Assembly (NCBI GenBank): GCA_947625125.1
Contig: CANQNF010000013.1
Coordinates: 1 to 64,000 of the forward strand
DNA: 64,000 nt
Source: an uncultured Clostridia bacterium
GTDB lineage: Bacteria > Bacillota > Clostridia > Oscillospirales > Ruminococcaceae
Direction: 5' to 3'
Part shown: positions 44,252 through 55,835 of the stretch, one piece after another
Position numbering within the stretch: position 1 is the stretch's first letter
Layout of the letters: each line of letters begins with the position of its first letter
Translations under genes and position numbers: made by a program
The notes under the pieces: generated by a model
Told to the model about the DNA's origin: nothing
What the model saw: only the letters and a program-made list of their open reading frames with translations
Databases searched by the model: none

Positions 44252-44896
44252 ATGAATCGCAGGACCGCCGCTATGCTATTTGAAAATATCATGCACAGGC
44301 GTGCAGACCGCGTTGAACGCTGCGGGACCGGCATTGCCAACTACGTTTTTATCGTCACTGCCGCCGAAGAAAGGTTCGTTCTTCGATGCAAAAATGACGG
44401 CGGCTACGATACTGCCGTTTACCTTCTTGGCAAACTCTCTGCCTGCGGGATACCTGTTCCGGCCGTCATAACTTCCGGCGAGTACGGCGGCTTTGCATAT
44501 CTTGTCCTCAGCTGCATTCCCGGCGACGACCTCGGAAACGTTTACGGCGGGCTTGATGATGACGAAAAAAGCGGCTTGCCAAGGAAGTTATCGCGGTACA
44601 GAGAAAAGAAATCTGCCCGAACGAGACTGAATACCGGGCATTTTTGTTCTACTTCCTGCTCTATTGCGTTGATTTTATGGGCGAAAGGGGCATGCGATTT
44701 TTGGATAAAACCGTCCCGGGAGACGCTGCCGCAGTCAAGAAGCTGAACGATATTTTCAATATTTTAATGGAGCATTGGGAGCAGGCCGCGAATCCCCTTG
44801 ATTTTATGCCGAAAAAGTGTTACAATCGACGTGCAGATTTCGGCATGACCGTCGACGGTTCGACCGCGGCCAAATATATACTCGGGAGGAATTTTT
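44252..44896 (+). pseudogene. Aminoglycoside-phosphotransferase-like kinase, broken
   Basis: The first frame gives an APH-type N-lobe (GTGIANYVFIVTAAEERFVL, then RCKNDGGY with the ATP-binding Lys region, YLVLSCIPGDDLG) up to about residue 108. After a one-base frame change the sequence goes on as AKEVIAVQRKEICPNETEYR, FLFYFLLYCVDFMGERG, FNILMEHWEQ, which resembles the C-terminal helices. The middle with the catalytic HxD and metal Asp loops is missing. An internal deletion plus a frameshift make it non-functional. Confidence 0.7.
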
Positions 44897-46264: not shown

Positions 46265-47347
46265 TCAATTTTCCCTTGAGGTATTTATCGCGAAAACCAC
46301 GCCGCTCATCGGGTATATCCACTTGTCCTGGATATTAAACTCAAACGAGTCGACGCTGTGGGTGGCGTTTTCGAGAGAGCTGTCGTCGCAGTCGTTGAGG
46401 AACGAAAACGCCTTTACCTCCATCTCTGTTTCGGGATATGACAGCTCGATGACCGGCGAATATGCCGGCTCGGATATCGACACCATGAAGTCGCTGATTC
46501 CACGCCTTTGGGGCATCGAGAAGCTTATATCGACGTCGTGGACCTTTGCCGCCTCGTCATGCTCCGAGAAATAGTTTACGGTTATGATATTCTCGCCGAA
46601 GCTGAAATCCTCAAGACGGCATGGCTTCCCGTCAATATAAATCGAGAGATGAAGTTCGTTTTCGATGAAGTCCTTCTTTTCTGCCTCCGGCATATCAAGA
46701 AGCTTTTTAAGCTCGGCGTCGTTTATCGCAAGATTTTCCTGGAATATATAAGTCCTGTTTCTGAGCGCGTCGTCGAGAGCGTTGGCGTTCATGATAAAGG
46801 CGACGCTGAATTTTTGGGGCAAAGAGCTGTCGGCGGCATAATGCTTTCTGTATCTTAAGCTTTCGTATATTCTGTAATAGCTCTCATCGCTGAACAGGTC
46901 GCTTTTCGGGCTGCTGCGCAGGGTTATCTTATACCTGAACACAGTCCTGCGGTTATATTTTCCGGTGATATATGGCTCCATCACAGCATATACCATGTCA
47001 TATGATTCATCGCCGACGAGGTGCTTGACGGTGTTTTTGACAAAGCGAATTTTGTCGTCGTCCTTAAATGCGCCTATCGCCTCGGATTCCCCCAAAAGGG
47101 TCTGGGTTATCTTTTCACTGATGTCGCTGGCGATATTGTCCCTTGTAAGATATTCCAGTCCGAAGTCGAATATCAGCAGCGGCGGGATTATACCTATCAT
47201 ATTTGAAACGATGTCGTCTATTATGCTTTCGCCGTCTGCGCCCCAGAAATGAAGCTTGATGACAAACAGCAACGCCCATATTAAAAGCGTTATCGCAAAA
47301 AGCATGAATGTCTTTATTTTCATATCCTGCCTGTTTTTACGGTTCAT
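46265..47347 (-). CDS. Membrane protein of unknown function
   Basis: A 360-residue protein with two N-terminal hydrophobic helices (about 12-31 and 46-64, FAITLLIWALLFVIKLHF and MIGIIPPLLIFDFGLEYL). A cytoplasmic helical stretch and a C-terminal beta-rich region (FSFGENIITVNYFSEHDEAA onward) follow. I do not recognise a family. The start overlaps the end of the dipeptidase gene by 11 bp with GGGGGAC upstream, so the two are co-translated on the minus strand. A link with cell-wall sensing or repair is a guess from this pairing. Confidence 0.65.
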   Translation of the reverse strand: MNRKNRQDMKIKTFMLFAITLLIWALLFVIKLHFWGADGESIIDDIVSNMIGIIPPLLIFDFGLEYLTRDNIASDISEKITQTLLGESEAIGAFKDDDKIRFVKNTVKHLVGDESYDMVYAVMEPYITGKYNRRTVFRYKITLRSSPKSDLFSDESYYRIYESLRYRKHYAADSSLPQKFSVAFIMNANALDDALRNRTYIFQENLAINDAELKKLLDMPEAEKKDFIENELHLSIYIDGKPCRLEDFSFGENIITVNYFSEHDEAAKVHDVDISFSMPQRRGISDFMVSISEPAYSPVIELSYPETEMEVKAFSFLNDCDDSSLENATHSVDSFEFNIQDKWIYPMSGVVFAINTSREN

Positions 47348-48026
47348 TTTTTTGTCCCCCTATGATTCCTCTGTACATCGCCGGCCTGCCTGTGTAATAG
47401 CTCCAGAAGCTGTCGCCGTAGTCATAATGCCACCATTCGAGCGGGTAGTTCGTGAAGCCCGCCTCCGTCATGACCCGATATAAAAGACGGCGGTTGTCGC
47501 GTATTTCGGCATGGTCCGAGTCTTCAAAATGAGCGGTCAGAGATTTTTCGGTGAAGTCGTCAAAGCCCGTGCCCATGTTCAGTTCTCTGCCGGAATTGAT
47601 TTCGATTATCGTGAGATCTATCGCACCGCCCGAGTTGTGTACCGACGGGCGCTCGGGGTCCATGGACGGAAGCGATACGAATTTTTTAGTCTCTACAGTG
47701 AGCTGTTCATCATTCCAATCGGGATTATCTGCTTTAAGAGAATCATAAAAACGCCGAAACAGCGCAGTCTGGACCTCGATCGGCCGCCATGCGTCAAAGA
47801 CCTTGAACGTCAGCCCTTTCGGCAGCCGCTCAAGCGCTTTTTTCAAAAGAACGGCCGCAGATTTGCGCAGATAGCAGCCGTCGACCGCCCCGCTCAGCCC
47901 CTGATAAAAATACTGAGGAGAAACCTTTATTCGATTGCCGAAATATTCGGAAAGCGATATAAGCGGCTCGTCGATGAATTCATGCCTCCCGCATTCCCGC
48001 GGCGGTTCAGATTTTGGTATATTCAT
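47337..48026 (-). CDS. ddpX: D-alanyl-D-alanine dipeptidase (VanX/DdpX family, M15D)
   Basis: A 229-residue zinc dipeptidase that would split D-Ala-D-Ala. The zinc motif SVHNSGGAIDLTI (SxHxxGxAxD) is at about 128-140, and the catalytic Glu plus third His ligand are in PLEWWHYDYGD. The Arg of FKVFDAWRPIEVQ fits the substrate-binding region. No vanH, vanA or vanRS genes are nearby, so a role in peptidoglycan recycling is more likely than glycopeptide resistance. It has its own promoter. Confidence 0.9.
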   Translation of the reverse strand: MNIPKSEPPRECGRHEFIDEPLISLSEYFGNRIKVSPQYFYQGLSGAVDGCYLRKSAAVLLKKALERLPKGLTFKVFDAWRPIEVQTALFRRFYDSLKADNPDWNDEQLTVETKKFVSLPSMDPERPSVHNSGGAIDLTIIEINSGRELNMGTGFDDFTEKSLTAHFEDSDHAEIRDNRRLLYRVMTEAGFTNYPLEWWHYDYGDSFWSYYTGRPAMYRGIIGGQKNEP

Positions 48027-48240: not shown

Positions 48241-48269
48241 TTTCGCAAAGTTACTACATTTGCGAAAGA
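48241..48269 (+). repeat. Left inverted repeat, recombinase core site
   Basis: TTTCGCAAA, spacer GTTACTACA, TTTGCGAAA, then GA. The two 9-bp arms are perfect inverted copies of each other around an asymmetric 9-bp spacer. That is the layout of tyrosine recombinase crossover sites. Confidence 0.9.
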
Positions 48270-48285
48270 CTCAAATCTTGCTTGT

Positions 48286-48314
48286 ATTATAACACATCGA
48301 CAAAAGAAATGCAA
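48286..48314 (-). promoter_or_regulatory. Outward-facing extended -10 promoter inside the invertible segment
   Basis: On the minus strand TTGCAT (48314-48309), 17 bases ending in TGT, then TATAAT (48291-48286). The -35 is weak but TGTTATAAT is a full extended -10. The predicted start point lies next to the left repeat, so transcripts leave the segment. Confidence 0.65.
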
Positions 48315-48491
48315 TAGTTTTAGTGAAATTTCTAAAAATTCAGCAAAAATATACGAATGAAATGACAAAAAACAATCAGAAAATATTGAAATTACGCCTG
48401 AGACAGCGTGTAGTAAAGCCCTTTCCGCAGTCAAAATCGCAGTCAGATATAATTTTATTGTATAACTAAAATATAACTTTTGGAGGAATTT

Positions 48492-49592
48492 ATGAAAGAT
48501 GAGAATATTTTCAAGCGCAAGGACGGTCGCTGGGAAGCACGATATGTTAAAAGCCGTGCGCCGTCCGGTCAGATAGTTTACGGATATTGCTATGGCAAAT
48601 CCTATAAAGAGGTCAAGGAAAAGGTCGCGAGGTTCAAGACAACCGAGCCGAAAAATGCAAATATTTCCTTAAACTCCGGTCGCAAAAAGTTTGCAGTTTT
48701 CTGCGATAAATGGCTTGAATCCTGCCGAGGACGGCTTAAAGCTTCAACTTGCGAGAGATACAGGACTGCTATTGAGTGCCACATAAAGCCTAATCTTGGG
48801 GAATGCTTGCCGCAGAGCATTACAAGCGAGATGGTAGCAGAGTTTTCGTCAATTCTTTTGGGCGAGGAATTATCCCCAAAAACTGTAAAAGATGTGCTAA
48901 TTGTGCTGCGTTTGGTGCTGAAATACACATCAAAACAGTTGCCATTCGGTCTGCCGGAGATCGAGATTACATACCCGAAAGAGCAGAAAAAGGAGGTTCG
49001 CGTCCTGTCATCAGAGGAGCAGGAACGCTTTATTTCCTATCTTTCAGAGGACATGGACTGCTGCAAATTCGGTGTGCTGCTTGCGATGTTCACCGGCTTG
49101 CGGATCGGCGAGCTCTGTGCGTTGAAATGGGAGAATATATCAATCCACGACAGGACGATTAAGGTTACAGCTACAATGCAAAGGCTCAAAAGTGGGAATA
49201 CCGGGCATACAAAAGTCGTTGTTGGCAGTCCTAAAAGCGACCTTTCGTATCGTATAATACCCCTTTCAGACGCGGCTGTCAAGCTCTGCAAAAGCATGGA
49301 GGTCAAGAGCCGAAACGCCTACATATTGACCGGTAACGGCGACTTTATTGAGCCACGGACGCTGCAATACCGCCTTAAAAAATATGCGAAAGACTGCGGA
49401 ATTGAGGACATTCATTTCCATACTCTTCGGCATACTTTTGCGACGCGCTGTGTTGAAGTTGGGTTTGAGATCAAGAGCCTTTCAGAGATTTTGGGTCATG
49501 CTACAACCGCTATAACAATGGAGCGTTACGTTCACCCATCGCTCGCTCTTAAGCGTGAAAATATGCAAAAATTGACTGCGGTGGGGCTGTAA
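48492..49592 (+). CDS. Tyrosine recombinase (predicted DNA invertase)
   Basis: A 366-residue integrase-family protein. The N-terminal arm-binding-like domain (FKRKDGRWEARYVKSRAPSG) and a SAM-like core-binding domain come first. The catalytic domain follows with Arg in FTGLRIGELCALKW (about 200), HTLRH (about 310), LGHATTA and the nucleophile Tyr in TMERYVH (about 344). All catalytic residues are present. ATG 48492 with TGGAGG is preferred over TTG 48480. It lies inside the paired inverted repeats and ends before its own terminator. CCGCAGTCAAAA occurs at both ends of the segment (48425, 49616) and may be an accessory binding sequence. Confidence 0.92.
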   Translation: MKDENIFKRKDGRWEARYVKSRAPSGQIVYGYCYGKSYKEVKEKVARFKTTEPKNANISLNSGRKKFAVFCDKWLESCRGRLKASTCERYRTAIECHIKPNLGECLPQSITSEMVAEFSSILLGEELSPKTVKDVLIVLRLVLKYTSKQLPFGLPEIEITYPKEQKKEVRVLSSEEQERFISYLSEDMDCCKFGVLLAMFTGLRIGELCALKWENISIHDRTIKVTATMQRLKSGNTGHTKVVVGSPKSDLSYRIIPLSDAAVKLCKSMEVKSRNAYILTGNGDFIEPRTLQYRLKKYAKDCGIEDIHFHTLRHTFATRCVEVGFEIKSLSEILGHATTAITMERYVHPSLALKRENMQKLTAVGL

Positions 49593-49640
49593 TTTTTACG
49601 GCTTCCGAAATTTCTCCGCAGTCAAAAAAGTGTGTCAAAT

Positions 49641-49682
49641 GCCGCCTTGATGATGCAGAAGTATCAAAAAGGCGGCTTTTTT
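49641..49682 (+). terminator. Rho-independent terminator of the recombinase gene
   Basis: GCCGCCTT pairs with AAGGCGGC, with a smaller inner stem GAT/ATC, followed by six Ts. It lies inside the invertible segment, so recombinase transcripts do not enter the polysaccharide cluster in this orientation. Confidence 0.9.
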
Positions 49683-49708
49683 GGGCGCTTTTCGGGCGTT
49701 TTCAGTTT

Positions 49709-49737
49709 TCTTTCGCAAATGTAGTAACTTTGCGAAA
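49709..49737 (-). repeat. Right inverted repeat, recombinase core site
   Basis: Exact reverse complement of the left site over 29 bases; on the + strand TC, TTTCGCAAA, spacer TGTAGTAAC, TTTGCGAAA. Opposite spacer orientation predicts inversion rather than excision. Confidence 0.9.
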
Positions 49738-49992
49738 AACGGAAAAGTCCAAAAGTGCGAAAAACAAACGGGGGGGGTAACTGCCCCTTATCGTCTCCGC
49801 AAGCGCGGTTTTTCGGAATCGAAGAACCTTTAGTGCGACGGTTGGCGACAGCGCAGTCGCACTTTTTGAAATGTAGAAATGAGAGTTGCAGGCGAAATTC
49901 ATAATGTGTTGGCAGAGTGCGGGTCACTATGCCCTCTTGCATTGATTTCGCAAAGGCGGCTTTCGGGCTGCCTTTTTTCGGAGGTGAACGGC
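49738..49992 (+). promoter_or_regulatory. Leader of second polysaccharide cluster with two terminator-like hairpins
   Basis: No convincing promoter is seen between the right repeat and the helicase start. Hairpin 1: AGTGCGAC (49832) pairs with GTCGCACT (49856-49863), then TTTT. Hairpin 2: AAGGCGGC (49953) pairs with GCTGCCTT (49967-49974) around TTTCGG, then TTTT, just before GGAGGTGAACGGC and the ATG. A G8 run followed by TAACTGCCCC is near 49770. The pattern suggests transcription attenuation needing an antiterminator. Confidence 0.6.
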
Positions 49993-52872
49993 ATGGCTAT
50001 CAAGCTTTTTGAGCATAATCGGACGGCTTATGAAGCCGCCGTTTCGATGCTCAAAGACGCCGGCAAGGCAGCTATAATCCACCCCACCGGCACCGGTAAG
50101 TCGTTCATTGGCTTCAAGCTTTGTGAGGACAACCCGGACAAGCGGGTTTTGTGGCTTTCTCCGTCGGAATATATTTTCAAAACTCAGCTTGAAGCTCTTA
50201 AAAAGGCTTCGGGGTATGAACCCGAAAATGTTAAATTTTTTACTTATGCCAAGCTGATGAATCTCACGGAGTCCGAAATTTTGGACTTGAATCCCGACTA
50301 CACCGTCCTTGATGAATTTCATAGGGCGGGCGCCGAGATGTGGGGTAAGGGCGTTCAGAAGTTGCTGAATGCGTATCCAGATGTGCCTGTTTTGGGACTG
50401 TCGGCTACTAATATAAGGTATCTCGACAATCAGCGGGATATGGCAGACGAGCTGTTTGGCGGTTGTATAGCTTCCGAAATGACCCTCGGCGAAGCAATAG
50501 TTTGCGGAATTCTTAACCCTCCTAAATATGTACTATCTATATATAGCTATCAAAAAGACTTGGAAAAGTATGAGCGGCGTATCAAAACCGCGAAGAATAA
50601 GGCGGTCAGAGACGCTGCGGAGCGGTATCTTGAAGCTCTCCGCAGGGCTTTGGAGAAGGCCGACGGACTCGACGTAATCTTCAAAAAACACATGACCGAC
50701 CTGCGAGGGAAGTATATTGTTTTCTGCGCGAATGCCGAGCATATGCGTGCGATGATGGCGGAATCGAAGGCTTGGTTTAGTGGTATTGACCAAAATTATC
50801 ATGTTTATTCTGTATATTCCGACGACCCGGAAGCCTCGCAATCTTTTGCGGATTTCAAGGCTGATGACAGCAATCACCTGCGCCTTTTGTTTTGCATCGA
50901 TGCTCTCAACGAGGGAATCCACGTTGATGACGTGGCGGGAGTGATCCTACTTCGTCCGACCGTTTCACCGATCATTTACAAGCAGCAAATCGGTCGTGCG
51001 CTTTCGGCATCTTCAACAAAAAATCCGGTTATTTTTGATATAGTGAACAATATTTCGGGACTTTACAGCATTTCAAGCTTGCAGGACGAGATGAGCGAGA
51101 TTGTAAGATACTACCAATATCTTGGCGAAAATCACTATATCGTCAACCAAAGATTTGAAATTTTCGACGATCTCAAGGACTGCCGGAGGATTTTTGATGA
51201 GCTGGAGACCGCTCTTTCGGCGAGTTGGGAGTTTATGTTCGACGAGGCGAACGCCTATTTTAAAAGGTATGGCGACCTACTTCCCGGTAATGATTACGTC
51301 ACCGAAGATGGCATGAAGCTCGGGAAATGGCTCGTCACGCAGCGGATAAATTACCGAAACGGCTCCGGGATTTCGCAGGCAAGAATTGAAAAATTGAACT
51401 CCATCGGCATGGATTGGAGAACTCTTCACGAGCGTCAGTGGGACGAAGGTTATGAGCTTGCAAAGGCGTATTTTGAGCGGCATGGCAGCCTTGAAACGAG
51501 CGCGGAAATGCTCCCAAAACTGTCAAACTGGCTAACAAAACAAAGGCAAAGACAACGCGAGAACGAGATGCCGTTTGAACAGTTTGAGAAGTTGTCCGAA
51601 ATCGGCATGATTTGGGAGTTTGAGGACACCTGGGAGCAGAAATTTGAGCTCGCGAAAAAGTTTTATGAGATTAACGGAAATTTAGATATACCCGCAGCGT
51701 ATGTGACCGATGACGGCGTTGCTTTAGGAGCATGGCTGCGCGGGGCTAAGAATCAGTATCGAAGCGGAAATCTCTCGGCCGAACGCGTCGCAAAGCTCGA
51801 ATCCATCGGCGTTGAGTGGGAGTCGGTGCTTGCCCGCAACTGGGCGAATTATTACGAACTCGCGAAGAAATATTTCGACGAGCACGGCGATTTGAACGTC
51901 AACGCGCATTATGAAGTCGGCGGAGCGAAGCTTGGCACTTGGATCTCGTCGCAGCGCGAAAGCTTCAAAAAGGGCCGCCTAAGCGATGAACAGATAAACA
52001 AACTTAACGAAATTGGAATGTCGTGGCAGCGGTTTTCCGGCAAATGGGATAACGCGTATGAGTATGCGAAGGCATATGCCGACAAACACGGCGCGCTCGA
52101 CCCGCCTGCCGAGTTTAAGGCGGACGACGGCTTTGCGCTTGGGGCTTGGGTCTCAAGTCAGCGGGCAAAATATGCCGACGGAAAGCTGAAGCCTATGCAA
52201 ATTAAAAGATTAAACGAATTAAAGATTTCTTGGGACGTCCTGCAGGAGGCTTGGCAGAATGGCTTGGAGCATGCGAAGGCTTATTATGCCGAACGCGGGG
52301 ACTTGAATGTCCCGGGGCAATACGAATGTGCCGACGGATATAAGCTCGGGGTTTGGATTGCAAATCAGCGGTCAAAGTACAAGTCCGGGAAGCTGGCGGA
52401 GGAGCGCAAGGTCGAGCTTGAAGCCCTCGGAATTAAGTGGGACGGCAACAAGGACCGCTGGCAAATCGGCTATGAGCATGCGAAAGTATATTATAAGGAA
52501 TATGGCAGCTTGAACGTGCCGCAGGACTATATTTGCGACGACGGATACACATTGAACAACTGGATCGCCGCACAGAGAAAGGCGTTCAAAAACGGCAAGC
52601 TGACCGACGAACGGATAACATTGTTAAATAAAATTGGCATGGTCTGGAACCAAAACGACAGCAAGTGGGACAACGGCTACAGGTACGCCGCGAGTTACTG
52701 CAAACGCGGCGGCGGGCTGCCGATTCCGCAGACCTTTGTCACACCGGACGGGTATCCGCTTGGCGAGTGGGTGAGGTCGCAAAAGAGGCGCTATCGGAAC
52801 GGCAGGCTAGAGTCCGAAAAAGTCCGCAAACTGGCGGAGATTGGGGTCAGGCTGGACGGAAGCGCGGGATAA
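49993..52872 (+). CDS. SF2 DNA/RNA helicase with eight C-terminal helicase-associated (HA) repeats
   Basis: A 959-residue protein. The helicase core has Walker A HPTGTGKSFIG (about 30-40), motif II TVLDEFHRAG (about 104-113), motif III LGLSATN (about 134-140), and the second RecA-like domain with FCIDALNEGIHVDDVAG and KQQIGRALSA (motif VI, about 335). From about 418 to the end there are eight repeats of about 67 residues with W...(Y/F)E.AK.Y...HG.L..P, LG.W...QR..Y..G.L, and L..IG..W. HA repeats are rare in Firmicutes and their role is unknown. ATG 49993 with GGAGGTGA is chosen because the longer frame from 49879 would translate the leader hairpins. It is the first gene of the cluster. Confidence 0.88.
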   Translation: MAIKLFEHNRTAYEAAVSMLKDAGKAAIIHPTGTGKSFIGFKLCEDNPDKRVLWLSPSEYIFKTQLEALKKASGYEPENVKFFTYAKLMNLTESEILDLNPDYTVLDEFHRAGAEMWGKGVQKLLNAYPDVPVLGLSATNIRYLDNQRDMADELFGGCIASEMTLGEAIVCGILNPPKYVLSIYSYQKDLEKYERRIKTAKNKAVRDAAERYLEALRRALEKADGLDVIFKKHMTDLRGKYIVFCANAEHMRAMMAESKAWFSGIDQNYHVYSVYSDDPEASQSFADFKADDSNHLRLLFCIDALNEGIHVDDVAGVILLRPTVSPIIYKQQIGRALSASSTKNPVIFDIVNNISGLYSISSLQDEMSEIVRYYQYLGENHYIVNQRFEIFDDLKDCRRIFDELETALSASWEFMFDEANAYFKRYGDLLPGNDYVTEDGMKLGKWLVTQRINYRNGSGISQARIEKLNSIGMDWRTLHERQWDEGYELAKAYFERHGSLETSAEMLPKLSNWLTKQRQRQRENEMPFEQFEKLSEIGMIWEFEDTWEQKFELAKKFYEINGNLDIPAAYVTDDGVALGAWLRGAKNQYRSGNLSAERVAKLESIGVEWESVLARNWANYYELAKKYFDEHGDLNVNAHYEVGGAKLGTWISSQRESFKKGRLSDEQINKLNEIGMSWQRFSGKWDNAYEYAKAYADKHGALDPPAEFKADDGFALGAWVSSQRAKYADGKLKPMQIKRLNELKISWDVLQEAWQNGLEHAKAYYAERGDLNVPGQYECADGYKLGVWIANQRSKYKSGKLAEERKVELEALGIKWDGNKDRWQIGYEHAKVYYKEYGSLNVPQDYICDDGYTLNNWIAAQRKAFKNGKLTDERITLLNKIGMVWNQNDSKWDNGYRYAASYCKRGGGLPIPQTFVTPDGYPLGEWVRSQKRRYRNGRLESEKVRKLAEIGVRLDGSAG

Positions 52873-52892: not shown

Positions 52893-53642
52893 ATGGCGGA
52901 GCCGGAAATGAGAGAGGGAAACGTCGCGACGATCGAAAAAGACGTCGAATTGGGCGGGAATTACAGCGACGTTGTCGCCCCACTTAAAGTACATAAAACC
53001 GAAATTGTCGCGGCTGTTCCGACGAAAGAGCGAGTGCAGGTCGAGCCAAAACCGCTGTATGACTTCGTAAAAAGGGCGTTTGACATAATCGTTGCGCTGA
53101 TTTGCCTGACCGTGGGCCTGCCGGTTTACCTGATTATGATCCTCGCGATCGTGATCGACGACCCGGGGAATCCGTTCTTTGTTCAGGAGCGCGTTGGCCT
53201 CAACGGGCGGGTCTTCAAAATGGTCAAGCTACGGACGATGAGGAAGGACGCAGAGCAGATAAAGGTGAATTTGGCCGAGCAGAACGAATATAAATCCGTG
53301 CATTTCAAGATTGAAAACGACCCACGGGTGACAAGGGTCGGGAGATTCTTCCGCCGGACAAGCCTTGACGAGACTGCGCAGGTGCTGAATCTTCTGACAG
53401 GAAGTATGACGATAGTCGGACCGAGACCGTTTATCCCGAGCGAACAGGAGCAGCTTCCAAGTGACAGATTGCAGGTCAAGCCGGGTTTGAGCTGCTACTG
53501 GCAGTTAGAGCGAACGCTTGATATGAATGACGAGGAACAGCTGGAACTGGATTATAGGTACATAAGGGAGCGCGGAATTTTGACCGACTTGAAGATAATT
53601 TGGAAAACCGTGTGCTCCGTGGTCGGGGCGAAAAATTGCTGA
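52893..53642 (+). CDS. Undecaprenyl-phosphate sugar phosphotransferase (second cluster)
   Basis: Initiating transferase of 249 residues. A long soluble N-terminus leads to a hydrophobic segment at about 65-88 (FDIIVALICLTVGLPVYLIM), then VQERVGLNGRVFKMVKLRTM, DPRVTRVGRFFRRTSLDE and MTIVGPRPF with KPGLSCYWQLE. It resembles galactose/glucose-type transferases but differs clearly from the one at 378. It follows the helicase gene by 20 bp, the same order as in the first cluster. Confidence 0.9.
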   Translation: MAEPEMREGNVATIEKDVELGGNYSDVVAPLKVHKTEIVAAVPTKERVQVEPKPLYDFVKRAFDIIVALICLTVGLPVYLIMILAIVIDDPGNPFFVQERVGLNGRVFKMVKLRTMRKDAEQIKVNLAEQNEYKSVHFKIENDPRVTRVGRFFRRTSLDETAQVLNLLTGSMTIVGPRPFIPSEQEQLPSDRLQVKPGLSCYWQLERTLDMNDEEQLELDYRYIRERGILTDLKIIWKTVCSVVGAKNC

Positions 53643-53661: not shown

Positions 53662-54771
53662 ATGTATAATTATTTAATCATTGGAGCGGGCTTATTTGGC
53701 GCCACATTCGCCCAGCAAGCCCACGCCGCCGGCAAATCCGTTTTGGTCATCGACAAGCGCCCGCACATCGCCGGAAACGTCTACACCGAGCGGGTCGAGG
53801 GCATAAACGTCCACAAATACGGCGCGCACATCTTCCATACGAACAACAAAACCGTCTGGAACTACCTGAATCAATTCGCGGAGTTCAACCGCTTCACAAA
53901 CAGCCCCGTCGCGAATTACAAAGGCGAGCTCTATTCGCTCCCGTTCAACATGTACACGTTCAACAAGATGTGGGGCGTGACGACTCCCGAGGAGGCCGCC
54001 GCGAAGATCGACGAGCAGCGCAAGGCCGCAGGAATCACGAATCCGCAGAATTTGGAGGAGCAGGCGATTTCGCTTGTCGGCACCGACATCTATCAAAAAT
54101 TAGTTAAGGGATATACCGAAAAGCAATGGGGCCGTGACTGCAAAGACCTGCCCTCGTTTATCATCAAACGGCTTCCGGTCCGCCTGACTTTCGACAACAA
54201 CTACTTTAATGCACTCTATCAGGGCATTCCCGTCGGCGGGTACACGAAGATGGTCGAGAATATGCTCGACGGCATTGAGGTGCGGCTTGGTGTTGATTAT
54301 TTGGAGCATAAAGCCGAGCTTGACAAGCTTGCCGAAACGGTCGTCTACACCGGCCCGATTGACGCCTACTTTGGTTATAAACTTGGCTATTTGGAATACC
54401 GTTCGGTCAGGTTCGAGACAGAGCTTCTTGACATGCCGAATTTCCAAGGCAATGCCGCAGTAAATTACACCGACCGTGAGACTCCGTGGACGAGAATTAT
54501 TGAGCATAAGTGGTTTGAATTCGGTAAGGATGAGCAGGGGAATGACCTGCCGAAAACCGTCATCAGCCGAGAATTTAGCTCTGAGTGGAAGCCGGGCGAT
54601 GAGCCGTATTATCCCGTTAATGACGAAAAGAATTCGGCATTGTATGCAGAGTATAAACAGCTTGCAGACGCCGAGAAAAATGTCATTTTCGGCGGAAGAT
54701 TGGCGGAGTATAAGTATTACGATATGGATCAGGTCGTCGAAAAAGCTTTGAAAATGGTGGGTGAAATATGA
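53662..54771 (+). CDS. glf: UDP-galactopyranose mutase
   Basis: Glf interconverts UDP-galactopyranose and UDP-galactofuranose using reduced FAD. The 369-residue protein has the FAD motif IIGAGLFGATFAQQA, VIDKRPHIAGNVYTE, and the family signature HKYGAHIFHTNNKTVWNY. It also has GYTEKQWGRD, RLPVRLTFDNNYF and the C-terminal GRLAEYKYYDMDQV. It shows that the second polymer probably contains galactofuranose. It overlaps the next gene by 4 bp. Confidence 0.95.
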   Translation: MYNYLIIGAGLFGATFAQQAHAAGKSVLVIDKRPHIAGNVYTERVEGINVHKYGAHIFHTNNKTVWNYLNQFAEFNRFTNSPVANYKGELYSLPFNMYTFNKMWGVTTPEEAAAKIDEQRKAAGITNPQNLEEQAISLVGTDIYQKLVKGYTEKQWGRDCKDLPSFIIKRLPVRLTFDNNYFNALYQGIPVGGYTKMVENMLDGIEVRLGVDYLEHKAELDKLAETVVYTGPIDAYFGYKLGYLEYRSVRFETELLDMPNFQGNAAVNYTDRETPWTRIIEHKWFEFGKDEQGNDLPKTVISREFSSEWKPGDEPYYPVNDEKNSALYAEYKQLADAEKNVIFGGRLAEYKYYDMDQVVEKALKMVGEI

Positions 54772-55835
54772 AAAAGATTCTTATGATTTGCGAGGCGTTC
54801 GGAGGTGGAGTCTTTACATATGTTTCGCAGCTTTGCAACGATATGTGCGGCGAATTCGACGTGTATCTGGCTTATTCCGTGCGCTCGCAGACGCCGAAGG
54901 ATTATAAAAAATTTCTTGACAAGCGAGTGCATCTTATTGAGGTCAAAAATTTCGGAAAAAGCTTATTAAATATTGTTAATGACGTTAAAGCAATAAAGGA
55001 GCTCAGGGCGATCGACAAAGAAATAAATCCAGACGTAATTCATCTTCATTCCTCGATCGCCGGAGGGATAGGCAGGCTTGCGTTTAGCGTGAAAAATAAG
55101 CCGGTTCTTTATACTCCTCACGGATATGCGCATATTCTGATGGGCTCGGGAATGAAAAGTCATGTATATAAATTTGCCGAAAAACTGCTCGGAAACCGCG
55201 CTATAACGCTGACCTGCTGCGAGAGTGAGGATGAGGAAGCGAAGAAATTCAGCAAGAAAACCGCTTACATAGAGACGGGCGTGAATCTTAAGGATCTGTC
55301 TGCGGCGCTTGACGGGATAGAACCCGTTAAGAATGATAAATTCACGGTTTTTTCACTCGGAAGAATTTGCGTGCAGAAGCAGCCGCAGGTGTTTAACAAG
55401 ATTGCCGAATTAGTGCCGGAAGCGAGATTTTTATGGATAGGGGACGGCGAGCTGAGAGATCAGCTGACCGCGCCTAATATTGAGATCACAGGATGGAAAC
55501 CGAGACATGAGGCGCTCGCGATGGCGAAGGGAGCAGACGCGTTTGTCCTTTGTTCGCTCGGTGAGGCAATCGCGATGAGTCTGATCGAGAATATGTATAT
55601 CAAGAAGCTGTGCCTTGTCAGCAACACTATGGGAAATAAAAGCGTTATTAAGGATGGCGTGAATGGATATGTTTGCAATAAGGCTGAGGAGTATGCGGAA
55701 AGAATCAAAAGCGCTATGCAGAGCTTTCCGGATGAGCTGCCGAAAGCGGCTTATAATGATGTGATGGAGATATATAACACGGACGTGATGAAATCGAAAT
55801 TTGTGTCATATTACAACACGTTGTCAAAAGGATGA
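54768..55835 (+). CDS. Glycosyltransferase GT4
   Basis: A 355-residue GT-B enzyme with EAFGGGVFTYVSQLCNDM at the N-terminus, HLHSSIAGGIGRLA and TPHGYAHI in the acceptor half, and FSLGRICVQKQPQVF, LWIGDGELRDQL, and ALAMAKGADAFVLCSLGEA in the donor half. It overlaps glf by ATGA, so it may act with UDP-galactofuranose, but that is a guess from position. The preferred pattern ends before the pyruvyl transferase start. Confidence 0.86.
   Translation: MKKILMICEAFGGGVFTYVSQLCNDMCGEFDVYLAYSVRSQTPKDYKKFLDKRVHLIEVKNFGKSLLNIVNDVKAIKELRAIDKEINPDVIHLHSSIAGGIGRLAFSVKNKPVLYTPHGYAHILMGSGMKSHVYKFAEKLLGNRAITLTCCESEDEEAKKFSKKTAYIETGVNLKDLSAALDGIEPVKNDKFTVFSLGRICVQKQPQVFNKIAELVPEARFLWIGDGELRDQLTAPNIEITGWKPRHEALAMAKGADAFVLCSLGEAIAMSLIENMYIKKLCLVSNTMGNKSVIKDGVNGYVCNKAEEYAERIKSAMQSFPDELPKAAYNDVMEIYNTDVMKSKFVSYYNTLSKG

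Follow-up and report, generated by a model that had tools for sequence, protein, structure and literature searches.

The window, as we call the whole stretch of 64,000 nucleotides analysed here, contains a segment of about 1.5 kb that is bounded by inverted repeats and encloses a tyrosine recombinase gene, in front of a helicase gene and polysaccharide genes. Segments of this kind are called cassettes below, and their two ends the P (promoter) end and the T (terminator) end. The features of the locus are as follows.

47337..48026, minus strand: M15 D-Ala-D-Ala dipeptidase-like gene flanking the switch on the left, with its own promoter match (TTGCAA-17-TATAAT with TG)
48241..48269, plus strand: left inverted repeat and candidate recombinase core site (27-bp core 48241-48267; 29/29 match, 0 in 100 shuffles)
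48286..48314, minus strand: outward promoter match of the P end, pointing left as shown (TTGCAT-17-TATAAT, TG before the -10; -10 at 48291-48286)
48326..48357, strand not assigned: A+T-rich block upstream of the P promoter, strongly conserved in an alignment of 11 cassettes
48427..48445, plus strand: two arm-type repeats GCAGTCA in tandem, spaced 12 bp apart, ahead of the recombinase gene (1 in the window, 0 in 100 shuffles)
48492..49592, plus strand: tyrosine recombinase of 366 aa, putative self-encoded invertase (Pfam, PDB matches, invariant residues)
49616..49624, plus strand: third arm-type repeat, CCGCAGTCA, past the recombinase stop codon (motif search)
49641..49682, plus strand: terminator-like hairpin of the T end, GCCGCC...GGCGGC followed by six T (fold of 49631-49690, -28.5 kcal/mol)
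49709..49737, minus strand: right inverted repeat and candidate core site, with the same spacer as the left copy in opposite orientation
49738..49992, plus strand: leader between switch and helicase; contains a poly-G tract (49770-49777) and, close to the helicase start, a terminator-like hairpin
49993..52872, plus strand: helicase with eight helicase-associated (HA) repeats, first gene of the presumed operon (HA E 1e-147; ResIII, Helicase_C)
52893..53642, plus strand: sugar transferase (Bac_transf), start of the polysaccharide genes (Pfam/NCBIfam profile matches)
53662..54771, plus strand: UDP-galactopyranose mutase (Pfam/NCBIfam profile matches)
54768..55835, plus strand: glycosyltransferase (Pfam)

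The two repeats (48241-48269 and 49709-49737) match each other in inverted orientation at 29/29 bp, with 1439 bp between them, and the enclosed gene is intact, in agreement with the original prediction of perfect repeats around a complete tyrosine recombinase gene. The predicted layout was likewise seen in both repeats: the 27-bp core is TTTCGCAAA-GTTACTACA-TTTGCGAAA, with 9-bp arms around an asymmetric 9-bp spacer, and the two copies are opposed in direction. A search for this core at up to 3 mismatches returned two positions in the window, the repeats themselves, and 0 in 100 shuffles. Across the genome of the window (G000, 3.17 Mb), the core arms were matched at up to 3 mismatches in 10 places, compared with 3 for a backwards control pattern. 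Four of the 10 are good sites (0-1 mismatch): two form the window pair, and two lie in inverted orientation on contig C10, at 77954 and 78289, with spacer GTTAGTACA. Each of the other six has 3 mismatches, and in five of these the same sequence recurs near contig ends. A scan of viral contigs for the core site gave 0 matches. Some distant cassettes have tandem core-site copies at one or both ends (L075, 3015-3126 and 4549-4623; L078, 11200-11254; L079, 9741-9796 and 11200-11257).

The recombinase matched the Pfam profiles Phage_integrase (E 7e-27) and SAM_3 (E 1e-9). Alignment of 24 recombinases, including that of the window, revealed R204, K248, H310, R313, H336 and Y346 to be invariant, and we take these residues to be its catalytic set. 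The Pfam matches and the invariant columns together identify a tyrosine recombinase catalytic domain (R, K, H-x-x-R, H, Y). In the PDB the recombinase matched, among others, XerA and chains named 'Int protein', the latter presumably Tn1549 Int; NCBIfam gave sub-cutoff matches only. The N-terminal 66 residues did not match a Pfam arm-binding domain at E up to 5, and comparison of the N-terminus with solved structures gave no related match, the best being ClpX (E 0.096).

The arm-type motif was noticed first in cassette alignments and counted afterwards. A further CCGCAGTCA-type copy lies on the minus strand at 49573-49581, and one occurs elsewhere in the window, at 44729. The motif GC(A/C/G)GTC(A/G) is present upstream of the gene in 17/17 embedded-recombinase cassettes, including L064, whose left repeat falls off the contig, and after the stop codon in 14/17; the upstream pair is exactly 12 bp apart in 14/17. 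In all 14 cassettes with motifs on both sides the variable letter is the same upstream and downstream (7 A, 7 C), and the two C-form cassettes in the genus of the window are G017:C44 and L062 (G011:C6). The short cassette G000:C10 has one arm of the C form and the others of the A form. The upstream motif was detected at 21/21 recombinase loci with repeats, compared with 1/7 genus relatives without them (Fisher p 2e-5, uncorrected for relatedness, with the seven repeat-less relatives all from one genus and only 148 bp available downstream for L108). The set of 21 consists of the 17 cassettes plus L079, L072, L077 and L111, the last three assigned by imperfect repeats (L111 at only 16/20). Among 24 order-wide recombinase loci, which may partly duplicate the set of 24 named loci considered below, the gene was located in 21, and 17 of these have flanking inverted repeats matching at 19 or more of 22 positions; one shuffled control per locus reached at most 18/22. 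Where these order-wide loci have arms on both sides, the letters agree in 9/10 and disagree in L132. The arm repeats are probably accessory binding sites of the recombinase. The locus L101 (796-996, G020:C10), a recombinase relative with a P-end match upstream (E 1e-9), was excluded from the arm count as its gene is cut by the contig end; it has no core site within 3 mismatches and is possibly a decayed embedded cassette.

The outward extended -10 promoter described beside the left repeat is real as a sequence match, and its TG-extended -10 makes a 5' end near 48279 plausible; its -35 agrees with the consensus at only 3/6 positions. We aligned 11 segments, eight without recombinase (359-386 bp) and three with it (the window, G017:C44 and G009:C12, with the gene represented as N). 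The -10 hexamer and the -35 core are invariant among them. In all 11 the P end combines the promoter match with the A+T-rich block, and the T end has a GC-rich hairpin with T residues behind it, as judged from the sequence alignment. A strict terminator scan missed the T-end hairpin of the window, the stem of which has internal mismatches. The inverted repeats thus surround a promoter-bearing segment, as expected of an inverton, with the promoter assigned by sequence match.

No convincing plus-strand promoter was found in the leader (49738-49992), where the best candidate was CATAAT with a 1/6 match at -35. The proposal that the operon lacks a clear promoter in the orientation shown agrees with this result as far as the leader goes, and the absence is weak evidence because one promoter scan also misses the P promoter. 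The strict terminator rule identified terminators in 4/11 leaders (4 in total; shuffled mean 0.26, maximum 2) and none in the other 7/11, giving partial support to a model of leader attenuation in which terminators between promoter and helicase would require antitermination. A poly-G tract of 8 to 11 bases was observed in 6/11 leaders (the window, L064, L100, L103, L104 and L105); its length varies among loci, and contigs G000:C33 and G016:C19 start inside it. This tract could be a second phase-variable element, based on slippage.

Ten further cassettes in the genus share the ends of the window segment, two of them enclosing a recombinase and eight without one, indicating that the recombinase gene occupies the centre of a cassette that is standard in other respects. 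Recombinase-less cassettes occur in the window's own genome as well as in its genus. One far-side (non-helicase) neighbourhood adjoins a short cassette in G003:C8 and G028:C6 and a recombinase-containing, inverted one in G009:C12, consistent with gain or loss of the gene inside a cassette. The 9-bp spacer is identical within each of 11 resolved cassette pairs, and six different spacers were found among the 11 cassettes (GTTACTACA, GTTAGTACA, GTTACATCA, GTTAGCACT, GTTAGCTAC and GTTAATACA). Two cassettes of G003 share one spacer, as do two of G010; the spacer therefore does not isolate every cassette, and exchange between such cassettes is possible. The far-side flanks of the two G010 cassettes (L094 2541-3000 and L095 1953-2412, on C34 and C69) are about 98% identical over about 460 bp, which might reflect duplication or recombination between cassettes.

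Orientation was called by placing models of the P and T ends relative to the helicase start, ON denoting the P end nearer and OFF the T end nearer. The window segment has its T end towards the helicase/polysaccharide operon and is accordingly read as OFF. Among 11 unique cassettes with a helicase on the same contig, four are ON (G003:C8, G003:C32, G028:C6 and G017:C44), six are OFF (the window, L064, G010:C34, G010:C69, G020:C107 and G017:C84) and one received no call (G017:C76). This count includes L064 beside the genus cassettes and excludes L066 as a duplicate of L105; L064 and G017:C84 were called OFF with the T end alone on the contig. Recombinase-containing cassettes are found in both states, and DNA alignment of the window (OFF) with G017:C44 (ON) matched the segment at 70% on the minus strand and the helicase at 78% on the plus strand. 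The segments of G003:C8 and C32 and of G010:C34 and C69 are 93-96% identical and are inverted relative to their helicase flanks (66-73%). The clearest case of inversion between genomes is that of L078 and L079, from two sister MAGs outside the genus, at an S-layer/SLH locus: the recombinase-containing segment is 97.2% identical on the same strand, and the adjoining S-layer-homology gene region is 95.8% identical on the opposite strand. Comparison of genomes for both orientations, as the original prediction had proposed, thus recovered both, and its invertible-promoter reading is borne out by same-ended cassettes lying either way round relative to the helicase and by the inverted recombinase-containing form in sister genomes.

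We therefore favour, with a probability of about 0.92, a self-encoded site-specific inversion switch (inverton) that would make a surface polysaccharide operon phase-variable. The repeats, the polarity of their spacers, the intact recombinase, the P and T ends and the two orientations across genomes are all read directly from the DNA. We infer that this recombinase flips the segment in living cells, and that the P promoter works and controls the operon. In the proposed mechanism, the recombinase would be expressed from inside the segment, bind the inverted 27-bp core sites, and probably the GCAGTCA arm repeats too, and invert the 1.5-kb segment. An ON state would have the P end beside the helicase and the promoter reading into the helicase-HA/sugar transferase/glycosyltransferase operon. 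In the OFF state the T end would be beside the helicase, as it is in the window, with the promoter pointing away and the hairpin standing between the recombinase gene and the operon. Where spacers differ, inversion would stay within each cassette, even though one enzyme could recognise the arms they share; recombinase-less cassettes would be flipped in trans by the window recombinase or a paralogous one. A second recombinase in the same genome (L088 8727-9839, G000:C17) is 76% identical and has no flanking repeats; similar lone genes are present in G003, G006, G010, G015, G022 and G028, and such enzymes may act in trans on short cassettes.

The switch might instead act mainly on the genes to its left (the M15 peptidase gene and 46265-47347), or on each side in turn. 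The P promoter as shown does read toward the minus-strand gene at 47337-48026, but that gene has its own promoter match, and only 2/6 OFF cassettes with an orientable far-side gene have a first such gene that runs the same way as P (the window and L100, the others being L094, L095, L102 and L107, with L102 and L107 called OFF by the leader alone). The window promoter thus points at the M15 gene, but the orientation of the far-side gene is not conserved, and we read the element as an ON/OFF switch for the operon; control of the left-hand side is improbable.

Contig ends provide an indirect indication of both orientations within one population. At one repeat in G000, the contig ends of C25, C54 and C30 share exactly 77 bp, C48 shares 76 and C33 extends one base further, which gives an assembler k of 77, a value derived from G000 contig ends alone. 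Contig G000:C10 ends exactly 77 bp past the point at which the P and T ends diverge, as does G009:C12, which is expected if reads of both orientations were present and the assembly graph branched there. Site-bearing contigs of the genus end less than 100 bp from the site in 7/15 cases, two of which fit k = 77 exactly, and for G028:C44 the end falls at the divergence point of the P and T ends in another G028 cassette. The ends of G016:C6 and of G017:C60, C76 and C84 lie near sites and off the k = 77 prediction, so contig-end geometry is treated as supporting evidence only; repeats shared between loci can also cause contig breaks. The window's own contig passes through the switch unbroken.

This single visible orientation, together with seven genomes of the genus that have a recombinase relative without flanking repeats, would be compatible with a former switch that is now locked, its recombinase or sites dead and the operon permanently off in this species. 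Such a state is very unlikely, as neither repeat has a mismatch and the complete recombinase retains every conserved residue. Also, the C10 cassette of the same genome is presumed ON, from its helicase-type leader only (the contig stops short of the helicase), and its contig breaks where inversion is predicted.

The cassettes adjoin a characteristic gene. We examined 16 loci (the 15 genus contigs with a core site and L064), and a helicase-HA gene starts beside the cassette in 11 of them (the window, L064, L091, L092, L094, L095, L097, L100, L103, L104 and L105); in the remaining five (G000:C10, G009:C12, G016:C6, G017:C60 and G028:C44) one side is cut less than 100 bp from the site. A sugar transferase or other polysaccharide genes lie downstream of the helicase in 9/9 loci read (six by Pfam, three by similarity to window genes). 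The association is not universal, since G011:C6 and G024:C24 have a recombinase inside diverged or imperfect repeats in genomes without a helicase match. PADLOC matches of the helicase are weak and confined to the helicase domain (E 4e-16 to 8e-4), and we do not assign it as a defence gene, although it may have such a role. Positions 1-354 of the window match the helicase HA repeats (35% identity) and are followed by a sugar transferase (261-1118), so contig C13, on which the window lies, seems to carry two helicase-led polysaccharide clusters. Tandem helicase-HA gene pairs were observed at L089 (G000:C33, 228-5626), where they lead another polysaccharide cluster, and at L104 (G017:C84, 324-3624); compared with the N-terminal part of the window helicase they are 65-66% and 84-86% identical.

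Outside the genus, 14 helicases of at least 54% identity were found, and the upstream region could be read in 10, leaving out L172 (upstream unread) and three loci with under 260 bp of upstream sequence. By raw count, 7/10 have a pair of inverted repeats of 20-26 bp directly before the helicase (L155, L156, L158, L159, L163, L164 and L166), with site sequences unlike those of the window. L160 and L162 have no such pair before the helicase, and four more distant helicases (40-41%) have none either. At G056:C90 (L167/L184), 83-bp inverted repeats run up to the end of the contig and into the frame called as helicase; they are likely an assembly artefact and were not counted. In two of the seven the repeats surround a tyrosine recombinase with 35-37% identity to that of the window (L174 in G342, L179 in G500), and four others have a different, Xer-like recombinase of 277-292 aa next door (L173, L175, L178 and L182). 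The gene after the helicase is of polysaccharide type in 7/9 tested loci of the at least 54% group, with or without repeats, the exceptions being L178 (no match) and L181 (acetyltransferase). The helicase-HA gene thus marks these loci more than any one recombinase does.

Relatives of the window recombinase (E up to 1e-90) were detected in 26/394 sampled genomes of the order, and 20/24 named recombinase loci come from MAGs labelled 'Lapin', taken to mean rabbit. Among the 31 genomes of the genus, the core site (at most 1 mismatch) is present in 8, the recombinase (E up to 1e-60) in 12 and the helicase (E up to 1e-40) in 7; core site and helicase occur together in 6 (Fisher p 2e-4, uncorrected for relatedness). 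G016 has the core site and no recombinase at E up to 1e-60.

Least probable of all is that a small mobile element, an integrase gene with terminal repeats, inserted here with only an incidental promoter effect: the resemblance of the recombinase to Int proteins and XerA in the PDB, the occurrence of related cassettes at varied loci by different genes, such as S-layer genes, and the short (G003:C8, G028:C6) and long (G009:C12) cassettes at one locus in different species would fit it, but cassettes without the recombinase retain the P end, the T end and the sites, and tyrosine integrases leave directly oriented rather than inverted att sites on integration.

If the inversion switch is real, the invertible surface-gene switches of gut Clostridia form a defined family, for which core sites, arm sites, ON/OFF ends and a recombinase can be predicted, and an integrase-like tyrosine recombinase with accessory sites would serve as a chromosomal invertase. 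Helicase-HA proteins would be pointed to as a recurrent first gene of phase-variable polysaccharide operons. A broader and rather doubtful extension is that gut Clostridia possess their own dedicated system of capsule phase variation, paralleling that of Bacteroides, with a self-flipping master that carries an integrase-like recombinase and arm sites, same-ended satellites obeying in trans, and operons led by helicase-HA as a locus-specific, UpxY-like transcription factor (acting by antitermination or cross-locus control), whatever recombinase flips them.

Among known systems, Hin is a serine recombinase with an enhancer/Fis mechanism and a site of about 26 bp. In the portion of PMC5903667 available, Hin exemplifies a recombinase lying inside its invertible segment; the H segment of Salmonella (fljBA flagellar phase variation) resembles that of the window in containing both the invertase gene and an outward promoter. 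The window differs in having a recombinase of the tyrosine rather than the serine type and arm-type repeats, in the existence of cassettes that lack a recombinase yet share its ends, and in targeting polysaccharide genes.

According to the available parts of PMC12632263 and PMC5903667, Bacteroides fragilis has many Mpi-controlled invertible promoters before polysaccharide operons, which, as in the window, are often led by conserved first genes, and one recombinase may serve several loci. Mpi is there a global serine recombinase, the first genes are UpxY/UpxZ, and the phylum is another; the window has a tyrosine recombinase and helicase-HA first. The place of helicase-HA recalls that of UpxY in Bacteroides (PMC12632263 and PMC11892184, in part), a likeness of position only.

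Inversion switches operated by tyrosine recombinases at short inverted repeats include fimS/hyxS/ipuS of E. coli (PMC6083910) and the RecV switches of Clostridioides difficile (PMC5903667). In the sections of these sources available, the recombinase lies beside or far from the segment and arm repeats are not described, whereas in the window it lies inside, with arms. The Tn916/Tn1549 integrases are tyrosine recombinases with an arm-binding domain (PMC8138268, in part). The window recombinase resembles them in its SAM-like and catalytic domains, an extra N-terminal region of about 60 residues, and paired repeats near the core sites; it differs in its probable use for chromosomal inversion rather than mobility, and its arm-binding domain is putative. 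Inverton group 139 and invertase group 35 belong to Clostridia of hCom2, with linkage defined as within 5 kb (PMC11892184, in part). Like the window, group 139 combines a clostridial inverton with a linked tyrosine-type recombinase, a likeness taken from the description.

Among the literature matches listed (titles and openings of abstracts), with the subscription literature mostly outside their scope, there was no report of an embedded tyrosine invertase or of a helicase-HA/inverton link, and a prior description is possible. The original prediction had regarded an element with a self-carried invertase before a helicase/HA gene as unfamiliar. A recombinase inside its own switch is already known, as in Hin (PMC5903667, in part), a precedent that the prediction missed. 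It also missed the terminator-like end, the arm-type repeats and the recombinase-less cassettes, as well as the direction of the promoter towards the M15 gene in the orientation shown. What looks new is the tyrosine/arm-repeat version, the recombinase-less cassettes, and the repeated occurrence of helicase-HA as the first gene behind unrelated inverted-repeat segments.
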